A stretch of DNA of 64,000 nt from Eubacterium sp. (GTDB lineage Bacteria > Bacillota > Clostridia > Lachnospirales > Lachnospiraceae). The position numbers and the translations under genes were made by a program. Below the pieces are notes generated by a model, which saw only the letters and a program-made list of their open reading frames with translations, had not been told where the DNA came from and did no database searches. Positions within the stretch are counted from its first letter, which is position 1. Each line of letters opens with the position of its first letter. Of this stretch, positions 37,566 to 63,513 are shown in pieces. The stretch is from the NCBI GenBank assembly GCA_024684035.1, contig JAIKXQ010000073.1, positions 22,075-86,074 on the forward strand. Direction: 5' to 3'.

Positions 37566-39092
37566 ATGAGAGAAGGGCACAGAAATGCATCATCTATGGT
37601 GCAGAATCTACGAAGGTTATTTTGTTTTCGGGCAGCGCTGGTGATCTTGTTGACAGGGGCTGCCTTTCTTTTTCTGACTCCGAAAACGATATCGGCAGCC
37701 GTAAAGGCGATTCATGTACAGGGAACGCAGTTGGTAGACAGCTCCGGTGAGCAGGTACAGCTCTGCGGCGTGAGTACACATGGCCTTCAGTGGTATCCGC
37801 AGTATGTCAATGAGGCGTCGTTTGCCAGTCTCAAGGGCATCTGGGGGGCAAATGTGGTTCGTCTGGCCATGTATACCGGTGAGGGCGGATATTGTACCGG
37901 GGGCGATAAGACTCGTCTGGAGCAGATCATCGACACCGGTGTCAAGGCGGCAAACAATCAGGGAATGTACTGCATCATTGACTGGCACACCCTCAGCGAC
38001 TCCAATCCACAGACATATCAGGGAGAGGCGGTGAATTTTTTTAGAAAAATGTCCGCGAAGTATGCCTCCTACAACAATGTCATTTATGAAATCTGTAACG
38101 AGCCCTGTAACGGAACGACCTGGGGACAGGTGAAATCCTACGCGGATGCAGTTGTTGCGGCCATTCGGGCAAATGACAAGAAGGCTCTTATTCTCGTTGG
38201 AACGCCGAACTGGGCACAGTTGGGACTCGACGGTTCTCTCTACAACGCATATTACAGTAACCAGACGGATACGGATCTGAATACGATTCTGAACAACAGG
38301 ATCAGCGACAGTAACCTGATGTACACCTGTCACTTCTATGCAACCACTCACGTGGACTGGCTTCGTGCCCGTGTGAACAGGGCGATCGACGCGGGACTTC
38401 CTGTATTCATTTCCGAATGCAGCATCTGTGATTCCTCAGGCGGCGGAAACATTGATTATACGCAGGCGGATGCCTGGAAAAATCTGATCGTCCAGCGAAG
38501 ATTATCGTTCTGTGCCTGGAGTCTGTGCAACAAGGCGGAGACATCTGCATTGATCTCTTCGGGGTGTCAGAAGACTTCCGGGTGGTCGGATTCTGATTTG
38601 TCCACCACCGGAAAGTGGTTTAAGAAGTTTATCTGGAATCAGGGAGAATTGTCGAAGCCGACGCCCGAAGGCGCCATGTTCCGCCTCTATCATCCACATA
38701 CGGGTGAGCACTTCTATACAAGCAGCCGGCTGGAGAGAAATACGCTGGTGAGCCGTGGATGGATTTATGAGGGAATCGGCTGGTATGCGCCGAAGAAATC
38801 CACGACACCGGTATACCGTCTGTACTATCCTTTTACAACGGATCATCATTACACGTCCGATAAACATGAGTACGACACACTCATCAAGAAATACGGATGG
38901 AAGGGAGAGGGAATCGGCTGGTATTCCAGTGACAGTAAAGAGGTGCCGATCTACAGACAGTACAATCCGGGGGCACGTACCGGTGCGCATAATTATTCCG
39001 ACAGCAAATACGAAAATGATGTGCTTGTTTCGAAACACGGATGGATTGCGGAAGGAATCGGCTGGTACGGAATCAAGCAGGAAAGCAGATAA
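37566..39092 (+). CDS. Secreted GH5 endoglucanase with C-terminal DUF5648 repeats
   Basis: A 508-residue protein: signal peptide (about 1-42), GH5 barrel (about 45-360) and three DUF5648 repeats (about 375-505). Catalytic residues are Glu179 in ICNEPC (acid/base) and Glu284 in VFISECS (nucleophile), with WHTLSD and HFYATTHVDW nearby, as in subfamily-2 cellulases. The repeats read FRLYHPHTGEHFYTSS, VYRLYYPFTTDHHYTSD and IYRQYNPGARTGAHNYSD, each ending in EGIGWY. The enzyme should cut cellulose or mixed beta-glucans; the repeats probably bind cell wall or glycan (inference). Confidence 0.94.
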   Translation: MREGHRNASSMVQNLRRLFCFRAALVILLTGAAFLFLTPKTISAAVKAIHVQGTQLVDSSGEQVQLCGVSTHGLQWYPQYVNEASFASLKGIWGANVVRLAMYTGEGGYCTGGDKTRLEQIIDTGVKAANNQGMYCIIDWHTLSDSNPQTYQGEAVNFFRKMSAKYASYNNVIYEICNEPCNGTTWGQVKSYADAVVAAIRANDKKALILVGTPNWAQLGLDGSLYNAYYSNQTDTDLNTILNNRISDSNLMYTCHFYATTHVDWLRARVNRAIDAGLPVFISECSICDSSGGGNIDYTQADAWKNLIVQRRLSFCAWSLCNKAETSALISSGCQKTSGWSDSDLSTTGKWFKKFIWNQGELSKPTPEGAMFRLYHPHTGEHFYTSSRLERNTLVSRGWIYEGIGWYAPKKSTTPVYRLYYPFTTDHHYTSDKHEYDTLIKKYGWKGEGIGWYSSDSKEVPIYRQYNPGARTGAHNYSDSKYENDVLVSKHGWIAEGIGWYGIKQESR

Positions 39093-58088: not shown

Positions 58089-58844
58089 TCAGGTGTCCTT
58101 TGTATCAGCCATGTCCTGTGCTCTGGCGGTGCGATACTGTTTCGGCGTAAAGTTTGTGTAGGAGCGGAAAATCTGAATGAAATGACTCTCCGAGGAGAAG
58201 GCAAGGTGTTCCGCGATCTCTACAATACTCTTTCCGCTGTAGCGGAGAAGCTCCTTGGCCATATCGATCTTTTTGCTTCGGATATAGTCGCTGACAGAAA
58301 GTCCGGTTTCTTTTTTGAAGATACGGGACAGATAACTCTGGGACAGATGAACCAGAGAAGACAAATCAGCAACCGTAATTCGCTCGTTGATATGGGCGTA
58401 AATATAGTCCACGCACTGGCGGATCGGCGGTGAGGAGGGAACGTGCTTCCTCTGCTGCTGCATCTTGCTTGTGAAATCGAGAACCATGTGGTCATGAAGT
58501 GCGGCCACCTGTTCAATGGTTCTGGTATTGTCCAGCTGCTGGATATAGAAATCACTCATACGGAAAGCGCGCTCAGGCTCGAGACCGTGCTCGATGCAGA
58601 TTCGGGTAATGAATGCGGTAGTAATTACGCAGTGGTAGCGCATATTGAGCAGCGGATCCCTGGAAAGAGTTCCGACGCCGTTGTTGTCCAGGAAGCGGCG
58701 CTCCTGAATGTTCTTGCGGATCCGGTCTACGTGTCCGTGGCTTACGTTGTGGAAAAACTGCAGCTCCTCATCCAGGGCACGGTGAACGCGGCCGGCTTCA
58801 CCTTCGGCCTGTTCGTATTTGTACCAGTCTTGTAGTAATCCCAT
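58089..58844 (-). CDS. AraC-family transcriptional regulator
   Basis: About 251 residues from the ATG at 58844, ten bases after GAGG. The N-terminal 150 residues are not a familiar ligand domain. The C-terminal double HTH is clear: VADLSSLVHLSQSYLSRIFKKETGLSVSDYI and IVEIAEHLAFSSESHFIQIFRSYTNFTPKQYR. It may regulate the thioesterase that follows it or the divergent GH5-like gene; both are inference from position. Confidence 0.93.
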   Translation of the reverse strand: MGLLQDWYKYEQAEGEAGRVHRALDEELQFFHNVSHGHVDRIRKNIQERRFLDNNGVGTLSRDPLLNMRYHCVITTAFITRICIEHGLEPERAFRMSDFYIQQLDNTRTIEQVAALHDHMVLDFTSKMQQQRKHVPSSPPIRQCVDYIYAHINERITVADLSSLVHLSQSYLSRIFKKETGLSVSDYIRSKKIDMAKELLRYSGKSIVEIAEHLAFSSESHFIQIFRSYTNFTPKQYRTARAQDMADTKDT

Positions 58845-59107
58845 AGAAATATTTCCTCGCAATTATTGTTCGTATTTTGATACGTAAAATATCATATGTG
58901 TCTTTTTTGATTGTACTACGTTTTTTACAAAAATGCATCACTAATTTTTATGAAAATGTCAAAAAGGTGACTTTAAGTCGTTTTATAAACTTATTTTGTG
59001 TCATAGATTTAATATTTTTCGACGACACCTCGATAGAAAAGCAAATGGCATCAATTTATTATACTGTATAAGCTGAGTTGTGATTTTTACGGAGGAAAAA
59101 ACAGAAT

Positions 59108-60151
59108 ATGAGACAGTGGCAGGGGTACAGAAATGGTATAAACCTTGGCGGCTGGTTGTCGCAGTGTGATATCTGTGACAGGAAGCATCTCGATTCCTTT
59201 ATACAGGAGGCGGATATCCGGCAGATCGCAAAGACGGGTTTTGACCATGTAAGAATCCCTATCGACTACAGGTTATTCGAGGCAGAAGACGGGAACCCGA
59301 AAGAGGATGGGTTCCGTTATCTTGATCGTTTGCTTGAATGGTGCAACAGCTATGGTCTTCATATGCTGATCGATGTCCGCGAAACATACGGCTACACTTA
59401 TGATCCGGAAAAACGGGAAGTGGAGCGTATGCGATTTTTTTACAGCGCGGAAATGCAGCACCGGTTTCAGAGATTGTGGATGCGCGTGGCAGGGAGGTAT
59501 GCGCAGTATTTCGGGACAGTGGCCTTTGAACTTTTGGACGAGGTGGTACCGGAGGAGGTATCGGATGCCTGGAATGAAACGGTTCGGGATGTGCTGACTG
59601 TGATCCGGCAGGTGGCGCCCCGTTCCTGGGTAGTCATAGGCGGAGTGCGATATAGCTGTGTGAAGACGGTGGCACTTTTGGATGTACCCTTTGATGAGCA
59701 TATCGTATACAGTTTCCACTGCTTTGAACCCTTCGCGTTTACGCATCAGAAAGCATACTGGTTCGGACGGATGCCCTTCGACTATCAGATGGGATACCCG
59801 GATTCTATTGAACGGTACAGGGAAAAATCTTCTGTGTTCCCGTACGAAGTGGCCGGGATGATTTACGATCCCTTCGGGGGAAATATAGGGCCACATTATT
59901 TCGAACAGCTTTTTCAGACAGCGGTTCGAAATGCAGATGCCGATCATGTGCCGCTCTATTGCGGGGCGTACGGTGTGATTGACCGTGCTCCGTTGGAGGA
60001 TGCCCTTCGTTGGTTCAGAGATATCAGCGATGTATTTGAAAGATACAGAATAGGAAGAGCGCTATGGAATTATAAGGGTAAAGATTTCGGCCTTGTGAGC
60101 GGAGCTTTATCTGAAGCCGGAGATGAACTGGCGGAAATTCTTGGCAAATAG
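59108..60151 (+). CDS. GH5-like intracellular protein lacking the expected nucleophile
   Basis: A 347-residue barrel protein without signal peptide. The start YRNGINLGGWLSQC, FDHVRIPIDYRLF and MLIDVRETYGY resemble GH5 glucosidases or endoglucanases. At the acid/base position the usual NEP reads LDE (Glu145). At the nucleophile position, where GH5 enzymes have a Glu such as CGEFG, this protein reads YCGAYGVID with Ala287. It may be inactive, a binding protein, or use another residue. It sits just before the secreted GH16 gene (23 bp) and is probably cotranscribed with it. Confidence 0.82.
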   Translation: MRQWQGYRNGINLGGWLSQCDICDRKHLDSFIQEADIRQIAKTGFDHVRIPIDYRLFEAEDGNPKEDGFRYLDRLLEWCNSYGLHMLIDVRETYGYTYDPEKREVERMRFFYSAEMQHRFQRLWMRVAGRYAQYFGTVAFELLDEVVPEEVSDAWNETVRDVLTVIRQVAPRSWVVIGGVRYSCVKTVALLDVPFDEHIVYSFHCFEPFAFTHQKAYWFGRMPFDYQMGYPDSIERYREKSSVFPYEVAGMIYDPFGGNIGPHYFEQLFQTAVRNADADHVPLYCGAYGVIDRAPLEDALRWFRDISDVFERYRIGRALWNYKGKDFGLVSGALSEAGDELAEILGK

Positions 60152-60174
60152 ATTTATCAGGTAAGGAGAGAAAT

Positions 60175-63100
60175 ATGAAAAAGAAACAGTTGATCGCGCT
60201 TGGGCTTGCTATGGTTCTGGCCGGAGCTGTGCCCACAAGTGTATTCGGAGCTACAGGATCTGACCGGAATAACGGAAAGGATGTTTCGGTTGAGGCAACA
60301 GACGCGGACGTCAATGTTACCGTCGCTTCTGAAGAGAACGTTCCGATGTATCGTCTCTTCAACAAGGGAACCCTTGAACATCTCTACACTGACAGCACGG
60401 TGGAGAGAGACTACCTTTCAAAACACGGCTGGGTTTATGAGGGAATCGGCTGGTATGCACCGAAGGAAGGAAGAGAGATTTACAGACTCTACAATCCGGC
60501 CACAACCGATCATCATTACACTGACTCAACACATGAGCGTGATACCTTGAAGAAAAAATACGGCTGGAAGTACGAGGGAATCGCATGGCACACGGCAGAA
60601 AAAGAGACAGAGGGAAGTGTGGCGATTTATCGTCAGTTCAATCCCGGACTTACAACCGGCGCACACAATTTTACCGACAGCACGGTTGAGCGCGATCAGC
60701 TGAAAAAAGTCGGCTGGGTTGATGAAGGTATTGCATGGTACGGAGTAAAGGCTCCGGGAAAGGCTACCGCGGATATGTCGGATACATCCACAGTAAAAGA
60801 GAAAACAGATCTTTCATACAAGGGTTACACCATGAAGTGGGAGGATAAGTTCGATCAGAAAGAGCTTGACCGCGATGCCTGGAACGTTGAGCTTCATGAG
60901 CCGGGCTGGGTAAACGCCGAGCTGCAGGAGTATGTGGACAGCACAGACAACATTAAGGTGCAGGACGGACAGCTCATTCTGAAACCGTCCAAAGACAAAG
61001 ACGGCAACATTACATCCGGCCGTGTGAATACACAGAACAAACATGACTTCAAATACGGTCTTTTTGAGGCGAAGGTAAAAATGCCGAAGGGCAAAGGCTT
61101 CCTGCCGGCGTTCTGGCTGATGGCAACAGATGAGAATCTCTATGGACAGTGGCCGCTCTGCGGAGAGATCGACGCAGCTGAGGTTATGGGACAGGAGACT
61201 GATCTCGCCTACGGAACAATCCATTACGGAAACCCTCACAAACAGAGCCAGGGCACATACAGACTTCCGGCGGGAATGGACTTCTCGGATTCCTGGCATA
61301 CCTTCGATGTAGAATGGGAGCCGGGCAAGATCACATGGTATGTTGACGGAATCAAGTACCATGAGGAGAGTGACTGGTATTCCACAAAAGAAGGTGTTGA
61401 GACAGTATCTTATCCGGCACCGTTCGACCAGAACTTTTACATGATTCTGAATCTTGCAGTAGGCGGATCCTGGGTAGGATATCCGGACGATACTGTAGAT
61501 ATCAATGCTGATTCTTCTGAGTTCAAGATTGATTACGTCCGCGTATATCAGAAAGACAGCTACGACGAGAATGTAAAGAGACCGGAGAAGGAAGTTTCCT
61601 ACAAAGAGCCTGACGCAGAGGGCAACTACGTAACAAACGGAAACTTCTCCGAGGACGAAGATCTGACAGACGCAGAGGCATGGCAGTTCCTCACAACACA
61701 GGGCGGTGAAGGATCTGCGAAAATCAAAGACGGTCAGATCAATATCGATGTGAAAAAAGAGGGGGATGAAAACTATAGTACTCAGCTTCTCCAGAAGGGA
61801 CTCCCGATCATGCAGGGCGGCACCTACAAGGTTACATTTGATGCCTGGGCAGACGCAGAGCGTAGAATGGTCGTAAATCTCGAGGGACCGGACAACGGCT
61901 GGACCCGTTACCTGGCTGATACAACCGTAGATCTCACTACAGAGAAGAAGAGTTATGAGTACACCTTCAAGATGGAAGGAAAGAACGACCCCAACGGATC
62001 TTTGGAGTTCAATTTTGGTCACCAGGGATCTCTGGACGGTGTGCACATCACAAACGTAAAACTGGTAAAAGTGAGCCAGGATGAAGTTGCAGATGACAAC
62101 GCGAAGACTGTTCTTGCAGATGGAAACTACGTATACAACGGACAGTTCCAGTCCGGCGAAGGCCGTATGGGATACTGGGAGGCAGATAAGAACAATGCTG
62201 CCGGCACAGCTGTAAGCGTAACAAACGAGAATAATATCAGAAGACTGAAGATCGAAGCTCCGGAAGGAACTTCCGAGGAGAATCCGGTGATTGTATCCCA
62301 GGATAGTCTGGCACTTGTTGACGGTCAGGAATATGCAATGAGCTTTGACGCAGAGGGTCCGGCAGACGGAGCGCTCGCTGTAAAAGCAGCCGGACAGACA
62401 TATCAGGCAGAGCTCAACGGAGAAGAAACTTCCTATAATACAACAATTGTTCCGGCAGAAGGTTCTGCAAAGGATCTTCGCATTGTGATTACAAAGCCGG
62501 GAACATACTACCTGGACAACGTGAGAATCGTAGAAGACGCAATGATCAAGAACGGTTCCTTCGATGCGGGTACAAGCGGATATGAAGTATACGTAGATTC
62601 CGCGGCAAAGGCAAAGGTAGGCGTAGATTCCCTGACAGAGAAGAACGCACTTGCCATTGACGTAGAGGATACAGGCGCAGATGACTGGAGAGTTCAGATT
62701 AAGCAGAACAATGTGAAACTTGAAAAGGGAAGATGGTACACACTGACCTACAAAGCAAGAGCAAGCAAAGAACGTAAGATCCGTGTCATCATGCAGGGAC
62801 TTGAGGACAGAGGCTGGTCTGTATATTCTGACGACAGCAAGGGAACTGTTGATCTTACAACGGAGTACCAGACCTTTACACAGACCTTCCAGATGAGAGC
62901 AGAGGATGATCCCAAGGCGTTCCTCAGCATCTGTGCAGGTGCAGTGAATGGAAAACAGATCACAGAGAACCACAGTGTATATGTAGATGATATTTCACTG
63001 GTAGAGACCCCGGCTCCGGCACCGGGAACTGCAGCTTCCGAGGTGGAAGCGGGTGTAAACCAGCTCAAGAACGCTGATTTCGCAAACGGAACAGAGAACT

Positions 63101-63513
63101 GGGATGGCTTCGGTGATCTCGGATCTCCGGCAGAGGGAAGTGTTGCAGCAGTAGATGGCGCAATCGTGGCAGATATCAAGAACGCAGGTTCCGAAGACTG
63201 GCATGTTCAGCTCAAACAGGGCGGAATCGTCCTTGAGAAGGGCAAGACATACAAGCTTAGCTTTAAAGCAAGCTCTACGGTTGACAGACAGATCAAGGCG
63301 GATTTCCTTGATCCGGGCAACGGCTATGCATGGTACGGCGGCGGCACCTTCGATCTTACAAGTGAAGAGAAAGAATTTGAGGTAAAATTCACTGTAGATA
63401 AGGAAACAAACACGAATATGTACATGATGCTTTCCATGGGTAAGGTCGGAAACATTACACCGGCATCGACCGTAAAGGTAAGCGGACTGTCTCTGGTAAA
63501 AACTATAATATAG
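60175..63513 (+). CDS. Secreted GH16 beta-glucanase with DUF5648 and CBM4/9-like modules
   Basis: A 1112-residue protein. Order: signal peptide (about 1-25); three DUF5648 repeats (about 58-200: MYRLFNKGTLEHLYTDS, IYRLYNPATTDHHYTDS, IYRQFNPGLTTGAHNFTDS); a GH16 domain (about 215-460) with Glu331, Asp333 and Glu336 in GEIDAAEVMG; then about four CBM4/9-like beta-sandwiches (about 480-635, 645-785, 790-945 and 960-1110), the third and fourth most alike. It should cut beta-1,3 or mixed beta-glucans outside the cell. AGGAGAG precedes the ATG. Confidence 0.94.
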   Translation: MKKKQLIALGLAMVLAGAVPTSVFGATGSDRNNGKDVSVEATDADVNVTVASEENVPMYRLFNKGTLEHLYTDSTVERDYLSKHGWVYEGIGWYAPKEGREIYRLYNPATTDHHYTDSTHERDTLKKKYGWKYEGIAWHTAEKETEGSVAIYRQFNPGLTTGAHNFTDSTVERDQLKKVGWVDEGIAWYGVKAPGKATADMSDTSTVKEKTDLSYKGYTMKWEDKFDQKELDRDAWNVELHEPGWVNAELQEYVDSTDNIKVQDGQLILKPSKDKDGNITSGRVNTQNKHDFKYGLFEAKVKMPKGKGFLPAFWLMATDENLYGQWPLCGEIDAAEVMGQETDLAYGTIHYGNPHKQSQGTYRLPAGMDFSDSWHTFDVEWEPGKITWYVDGIKYHEESDWYSTKEGVETVSYPAPFDQNFYMILNLAVGGSWVGYPDDTVDINADSSEFKIDYVRVYQKDSYDENVKRPEKEVSYKEPDAEGNYVTNGNFSEDEDLTDAEAWQFLTTQGGEGSAKIKDGQINIDVKKEGDENYSTQLLQKGLPIMQGGTYKVTFDAWADAERRMVVNLEGPDNGWTRYLADTTVDLTTEKKSYEYTFKMEGKNDPNGSLEFNFGHQGSLDGVHITNVKLVKVSQDEVADDNAKTVLADGNYVYNGQFQSGEGRMGYWEADKNNAAGTAVSVTNENNIRRLKIEAPEGTSEENPVIVSQDSLALVDGQEYAMSFDAEGPADGALAVKAAGQTYQAELNGEETSYNTTIVPAEGSAKDLRIVITKPGTYYLDNVRIVEDAMIKNGSFDAGTSGYEVYVDSAAKAKVGVDSLTEKNALAIDVEDTGADDWRVQIKQNNVKLEKGRWYTLTYKARASKERKIRVIMQGLEDRGWSVYSDDSKGTVDLTTEYQTFTQTFQMRAEDDPKAFLSICAGAVNGKQITENHSVYVDDISLVETPAPAPGTAASEVEAGVNQLKNADFANGTENWDGFGDLGSPAEGSVAAVDGAIVADIKNAGSEDWHVQLKQGGIVLEKGKTYKLSFKASSTVDRQIKADFLDPGNGYAWYGGGTFDLTSEEKEFEVKFTVDKETNTNMYMMLSMGKVGNITPASTVKVSGLSLVKTII

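Follow-up and report, generated by a model that had tools for sequence, protein, structure and literature searches.

CelC of Clostridium thermocellum (1CEN) has been assigned to subfamily GH5_37 and described as intracellular (PMC3526467), and celC shares an operon with licA, a beta-1,3-glucanase gene, the operon being induced by laminaribiose through GlyR3 (PMC5483248). Non-catalytic GH5 proteins are also known, namely GH5_30, subgroups of GH5_1 (Xanthomonas) and GH5_8, and one GH5_48 sequence, and C. thermocellum possesses a pseudo-GH5, Rsi24C-GH5, as a putative biosensor; GH5_37 is absent from the non-catalytic groups described in that work (PMC3526467). No description of a non-catalytic GH5_37 was found in the literature searched, an absence that is in itself no proof. 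The reuse of dead glycosidases for binding or sensing is a known phenomenon, but an intact sister locus is rarely available to compare it with. Here, the gene at 59108-60151 (forward strand) of a 64,000-nucleotide stretch of Eubacterium sp. DNA (contig JAIKXQ010000073.1; hereafter the window) is concluded to encode a putative cytosolic GH5_37 (CelC-type) pseudoenzyme that is maintained in a predicted beta-glucan locus of AraC, GH5 and secreted GH16 genes.

The open reading frame is intact, with an ATG start preceded by a ribosome-site-like stretch, CGGAGGAAAA. Its 347-aa product matched the Pfam Cellulase/GH5 profile PF00150 with 90.3 bits (cut-off 23.5), placing it in the GH5 fold family, and its best solved relative, by far, was CelC (1cec; E = 2.9e-67, residues 7-346 aligned). 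The AlphaFold model reached a mean pLDDT of 94.5 and a pTM of 0.93, and a Foldseek search with this model returned the CelC structures 1cen, 1ceo and 1cec as the top three hits, with TM-scores of 0.85-0.87 by query length. CelC being the nearest PDB relative, and the protein being nested inside the CelC-like set in the tree, the placement was in GH5_37; the designation as a GH5_37-type pseudoenzyme is based on the PF00150 match, the CelC alignment and an altered catalytic signature. The protein consists of a single domain and lacks the anti-sigma factor and the membrane segment of an Rsi24C-type fusion. No signal peptide is visible, the N terminus MRQWQGYRNGINLGGW leading directly into the barrel, and the protein is predicted to be intracellular (cytosolic). 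A whole-genome search found no second GH5_37 copy in the same genome. The gene as a duplicate beside an active paralogue was rejected, because none of the genome's remaining PF00150 hits matched the 347-aa protein at E <= 0.001.

We take the GH5 catalytic centre to comprise eight residues, which in CelC numbering are R46, H90, N139, E140, H198, Y200, E280 and W313. The corresponding positions in the 347-aa protein read R49, R91, D144, E145, H204, F206, A287 and W320; four are replaced (H91R, N144D, Y206F and E287A), and Arg49, Glu145, His204 and Trp320 are kept. The original prediction of a GH5-like protein with Ala at the nucleophile position and a retained acid/base Glu was correct, given the PF00150 match and the full-length CelC alignment, which puts Ala287 (codon GCG, 59966-59968, forward strand, as are the codons below), within the stretch LYCGAYGVID, on Glu280, and Glu145 (GAG, 59540-59542) on Glu140. 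In addition, Asp144 (GAC, 59537-59539) replaces the invariant Asn at CelC N139, Arg91 (CGC, 59378-59380) the invariant His at H90, and Phe206 (TTT, 59723-59725) the invariant Tyr at Y200. The protein therefore lacks the strand-7 nucleophile Glu, the Asn before the strand-4 acid/base Glu, and the conserved His and Tyr of retaining GH5 enzymes; Glu145 is present, yet preceded by Asp144 rather than Asn. The conserved Trp218, H213 and Q214 are also kept. The gene is a warning for annotation: it scores as a cellulase above the Pfam cut-off although catalytic residues are missing.

In 73/73 relatives examined, which came mostly from Lachnospiraceae and other Bacillota and included one Treponema, the signature was R-H-N-E-H-Y-E-W; among the sequences checked, R-R-D-E-H-F-A-W occurred only in the 347-aa protein and its ortholog in [Eubacterium] cellulosolvens LD2006. 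In a curated alignment of 53 proteins (51 intact relatives and the two altered ones), 37 positions were invariant in the 51, and at five of them the two altered proteins carry the same substitutions (H91R, F98Y, N144D, Y206F and E287A); the remaining 32 were kept in the 347-aa protein. Of these five changes, four affect the eight-residue catalytic centre (Fisher p = 0.005), F98Y being the fifth and lying outside it, which points to a focused loss and not to general erosion. The claim that the rest of the barrel was intact and in frame hence holds for the fold and the reading frame but not for the catalytic centre, where His91, Asn144 and Tyr206 are gone, with F98Y besides. As judged from the sequence, the protein has most probably lost retaining glycosidase activity, with the barrel, the acid/base Glu and the conserved aromatics kept, and it may have low residual or altered activity.

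The LD2006 ortholog is 75% identical at the protein level and has the same altered residues, including the Ala at the nucleophile position; two entries for this strain (L002 and L040) are apparently one locus. Among the genomes examined, the dead form was found in only these two. A sequencing error was rejected, because the same changes occur in a second assembly and species. Between the two genes, dS was 1.36, dN 0.153 and dN/dS 0.112 by a simple Nei-Gojobori count, which is rough at this divergence, and no stops were present. The dN/dS was 0.05-0.07 for intact GH5_37 pairs where computable, and 0.09-0.13 for several neighbouring genes in the same comparison with LD2006. Because the loss is common to both species, constraint acted after it, and the comparison indicates that the gene has been under purifying selection since its catalytic loss; the roughly twofold excess of dN/dS over intact pairs could possibly reflect some relaxation. 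In the tree, both altered proteins form one clade inside the active set, with a stem length of 1.02 changes per site. The long stem and the low dN/dS would fit an episode of rapid change after which constraint returned, and the identical replacements in the two orthologs could be due to simple descent. We regard it as very likely that the 347-aa protein does not function as a GH5 hydrolase and that selection maintains it.

Divergent from the GH5 gene lies a gene for a 251-aa AraC-type regulator (58092-58844, reverse strand). Its model, of moderate quality (pLDDT 82, pTM 0.51), is all-helical, which suggests that the regulator has no beta-rich cupin sugar-sensing domain. The intergenic region (58845-59107) is probably a divergent promoter region and is 84.8% identical to that of LD2006; since the locus resembles a recombination mosaic, this identity is no proof of regulatory constraint. 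Downstream, a gene for a secreted GH16 beta-1,3-glucanase-like protein (60175-63513, forward strand) encodes a signal peptide, DUF5648, GH16 and four CBM4_9 modules. The protein carries an EIDAAE motif, and its closest solved relatives are beta-1,3-glucanases. The distance of 23 bp originally noted between the GH5 gene and a large secreted GH16 gene was confirmed as the gap from the GH5 stop to the GH16 start on the same strand, in which no gene fits, and the GH16 N terminus is signal-peptide-like. The celC-like and GH16 genes are thus co-directional across 59108-63513, as in celC-glyR3-licA, but no LacI-type glyR3 lies between them, and a divergent AraC gene is found upstream instead. GH94 genes are present in the same genome; as cellobiose and cellodextrin phosphorylases belong to this family, a loss of GH5_37 activity could be tolerated.

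Compared with LD2006, the GH16 gene is itself a mosaic: the first ~200 codons (signal and DUF5648) show 72-77% DNA identity, and the rest is mostly 91-99% identical with near-identical four-fold sites. Most genes neighbouring it have a dS around or above 1. This suggests that the GH16/CBM part was exchanged recently between the two species. The window also contains a second GH5 gene (37566-39089), whose secreted product has the normal catalytic motifs ICNEP and FISEC. The repeats at its end look, by eye, similar to the N-terminal DUF5648 module of the GH16 protein, and this DUF5648-like module may be a surface- or glucan-binding element that both proteins share.

Loci with an intact GH5_37 provide a reference for this gene order. 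In 41 such loci, drawn from two best-match searches so that the fractions are not population frequencies, an AraC gene of the same type lies within 400 bp of GH5_37 in 14, being divergent and upstream in 11 of these, and GH16 adjoins GH5_37 in six. The order of GH5 then GH16, as at 59108-63513, also occurs in L052, L054, L058 and L071, and the exact order AraC, GH5, GH16 with an intact GH5 in L052, L054 and L071; in L060, the AraC gene stands at the end of a GH16-GH5 pair. Across Bacillota, intact GH5_37 genes repeatedly have the short AraC-type regulator as a divergent neighbour (L041-L044, L052, L054, L057, L071 and L077-L079). L083, the match to the GH5_37 gene of G607, has one in-frame TAA. 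As the AraC gene stands beside a working enzyme in active relatives, the regulator does not in general need a dead GH5 partner. The occurrence of the same neighbourhood with working and non-working GH5_37 makes the change of role directly testable.

Several other explanations were weighed. The protein could be an ordinary active GH5 whose nucleophile was misidentified, as the original prediction had also considered in the form of a misassigned active site. The position is fixed by the 73 intact relatives and the full-length CelC alignment, and the fold of the model matches CelC best, so that this reading is refuted at the level of sequence and we give it hardly any weight; the confident CelC-like model likewise lends no support to a hidden alternative nucleophile. 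A glycosynthase-like variant, also proposed originally, appears unlikely as well, because the equivalents of His90 and Asn139 are gone too and there is no obvious natural activated alpha-glycosyl donor. Alternatively, Asp144, Arg91 and Glu145 together could form a rebuilt catalytic centre with a new chemistry, for example that of an inverting hydrolase or a phosphorylase in the space left by Ala287. The kept acid/base and the identical new residues (R, D, F, A) in two species would agree with this, and an Arg next to the vacated nucleophile site might in principle accommodate phosphate. However, we know of no GH5 that works via such an Asp/Arg/Glu centre, and the replaced His and Asn are both essential in a related GH5 enzyme, the GH5_36 member CpMan5B, whose mutants at the H90 and N139 equivalents are virtually inactive (PMC3835425); we consider a rebuilt centre improbable.

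A decaying gene, whose enzyme is gone and whose reading frame persists as a relic, would agree with the long stem branch and with a dN/dS about double that of intact pairs. On the other hand, the loss was already present in the common ancestor and dN/dS is still 0.11, the replacements are concentrated in the catalytic centre, and a neutral simulation over half the divergence gave a mean of 14 stops, with 0/2000 runs stop-free. A decaying pseudogene was accordingly rejected on dN/dS and this simulation, and is very improbable in our assessment. More serious is the explanation that a dead GH5_37 acts in some structural or moonlighting capacity that has nothing to do with sugar binding, or persists merely through its operon with GH16. 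The catalytic residues are lost, dN/dS is mildly raised, the GH94 genes of the same genome could handle cellodextrins, and the case for sugar binding is drawn from sequence. Purifying selection and the lack of stops at a dS above 1 argue against mere persistence, and the retention of nearly all other invariant positions, among them Trp218, Trp320, Arg49 and His204, suggests that the cleft is kept; this explanation is possible, though we would not favour it.

The "sensor or binding protein" of the original prediction is probably the best remaining reading, and the binding of oligosaccharides after GH16 digestion would be the simplest positive role for the 347-aa protein. The secreted GH16 would release beta-1,3 or mixed-linkage oligosaccharides, which would enter the cell and be bound there, uncut, by the dead cytosolic GH5; the bound oligosaccharides could thereby be stored, as in a buffer, or presented as a signal in a sensing circuit. 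The full account, in which the dead GH5_37 binds or senses beta-glucan oligosaccharides, has in our estimation slightly less than an even chance of being right. The recipient of the signal might be the neighbouring AraC regulator, which seems to have no sugar-sensing cupin of its own. Adjacency and the lack of a sensor domain in the AraC protein suggest this partnership, a weak step because active relatives also carry the AraC gene. A two-protein sugar sensor, in which a cellulase-derived pseudoenzyme captures glucan oligosaccharides and signals to an adjacent AraC protein without a sugar-binding domain, is a doubtful extension of oligosaccharide binding.

Among described systems, CelC (GH5_37; 1cec/1cen/1ceo) resembles the 347-aa protein most closely, with full-length homology at about 35% identity and the same fold; its subfamily is intracellular, and its gene is likewise linked to one for a beta-1,3-glucanase, in the celC-glyR3-licA operon (PMC5483248). 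However, CelC keeps all eight catalytic residues, whereas four are replaced here, and the regulator of the CelC locus is the LacI-type GlyR3, in contrast to the divergent AraC-type regulator adjoining 59108-60151. The non-catalytic members of GH5_30, GH5_1, GH5_8 and GH5_48 are likewise devoid of catalytic residues, and two of these groups stand on long branches (PMC3526467), but they belong to other subfamilies and have other domain architectures. In Rsi24C-GH5, too, a GH5 module has lost its catalytic function, and it serves in cellulose recognition (PMC3526467). This module is extracellular, forms part of a membrane anti-sigma factor and has lost the acid/base, whereas the 347-aa protein is a stand-alone, putatively cytosolic member of another subfamily, in which the nucleophile was lost and the acid/base kept.
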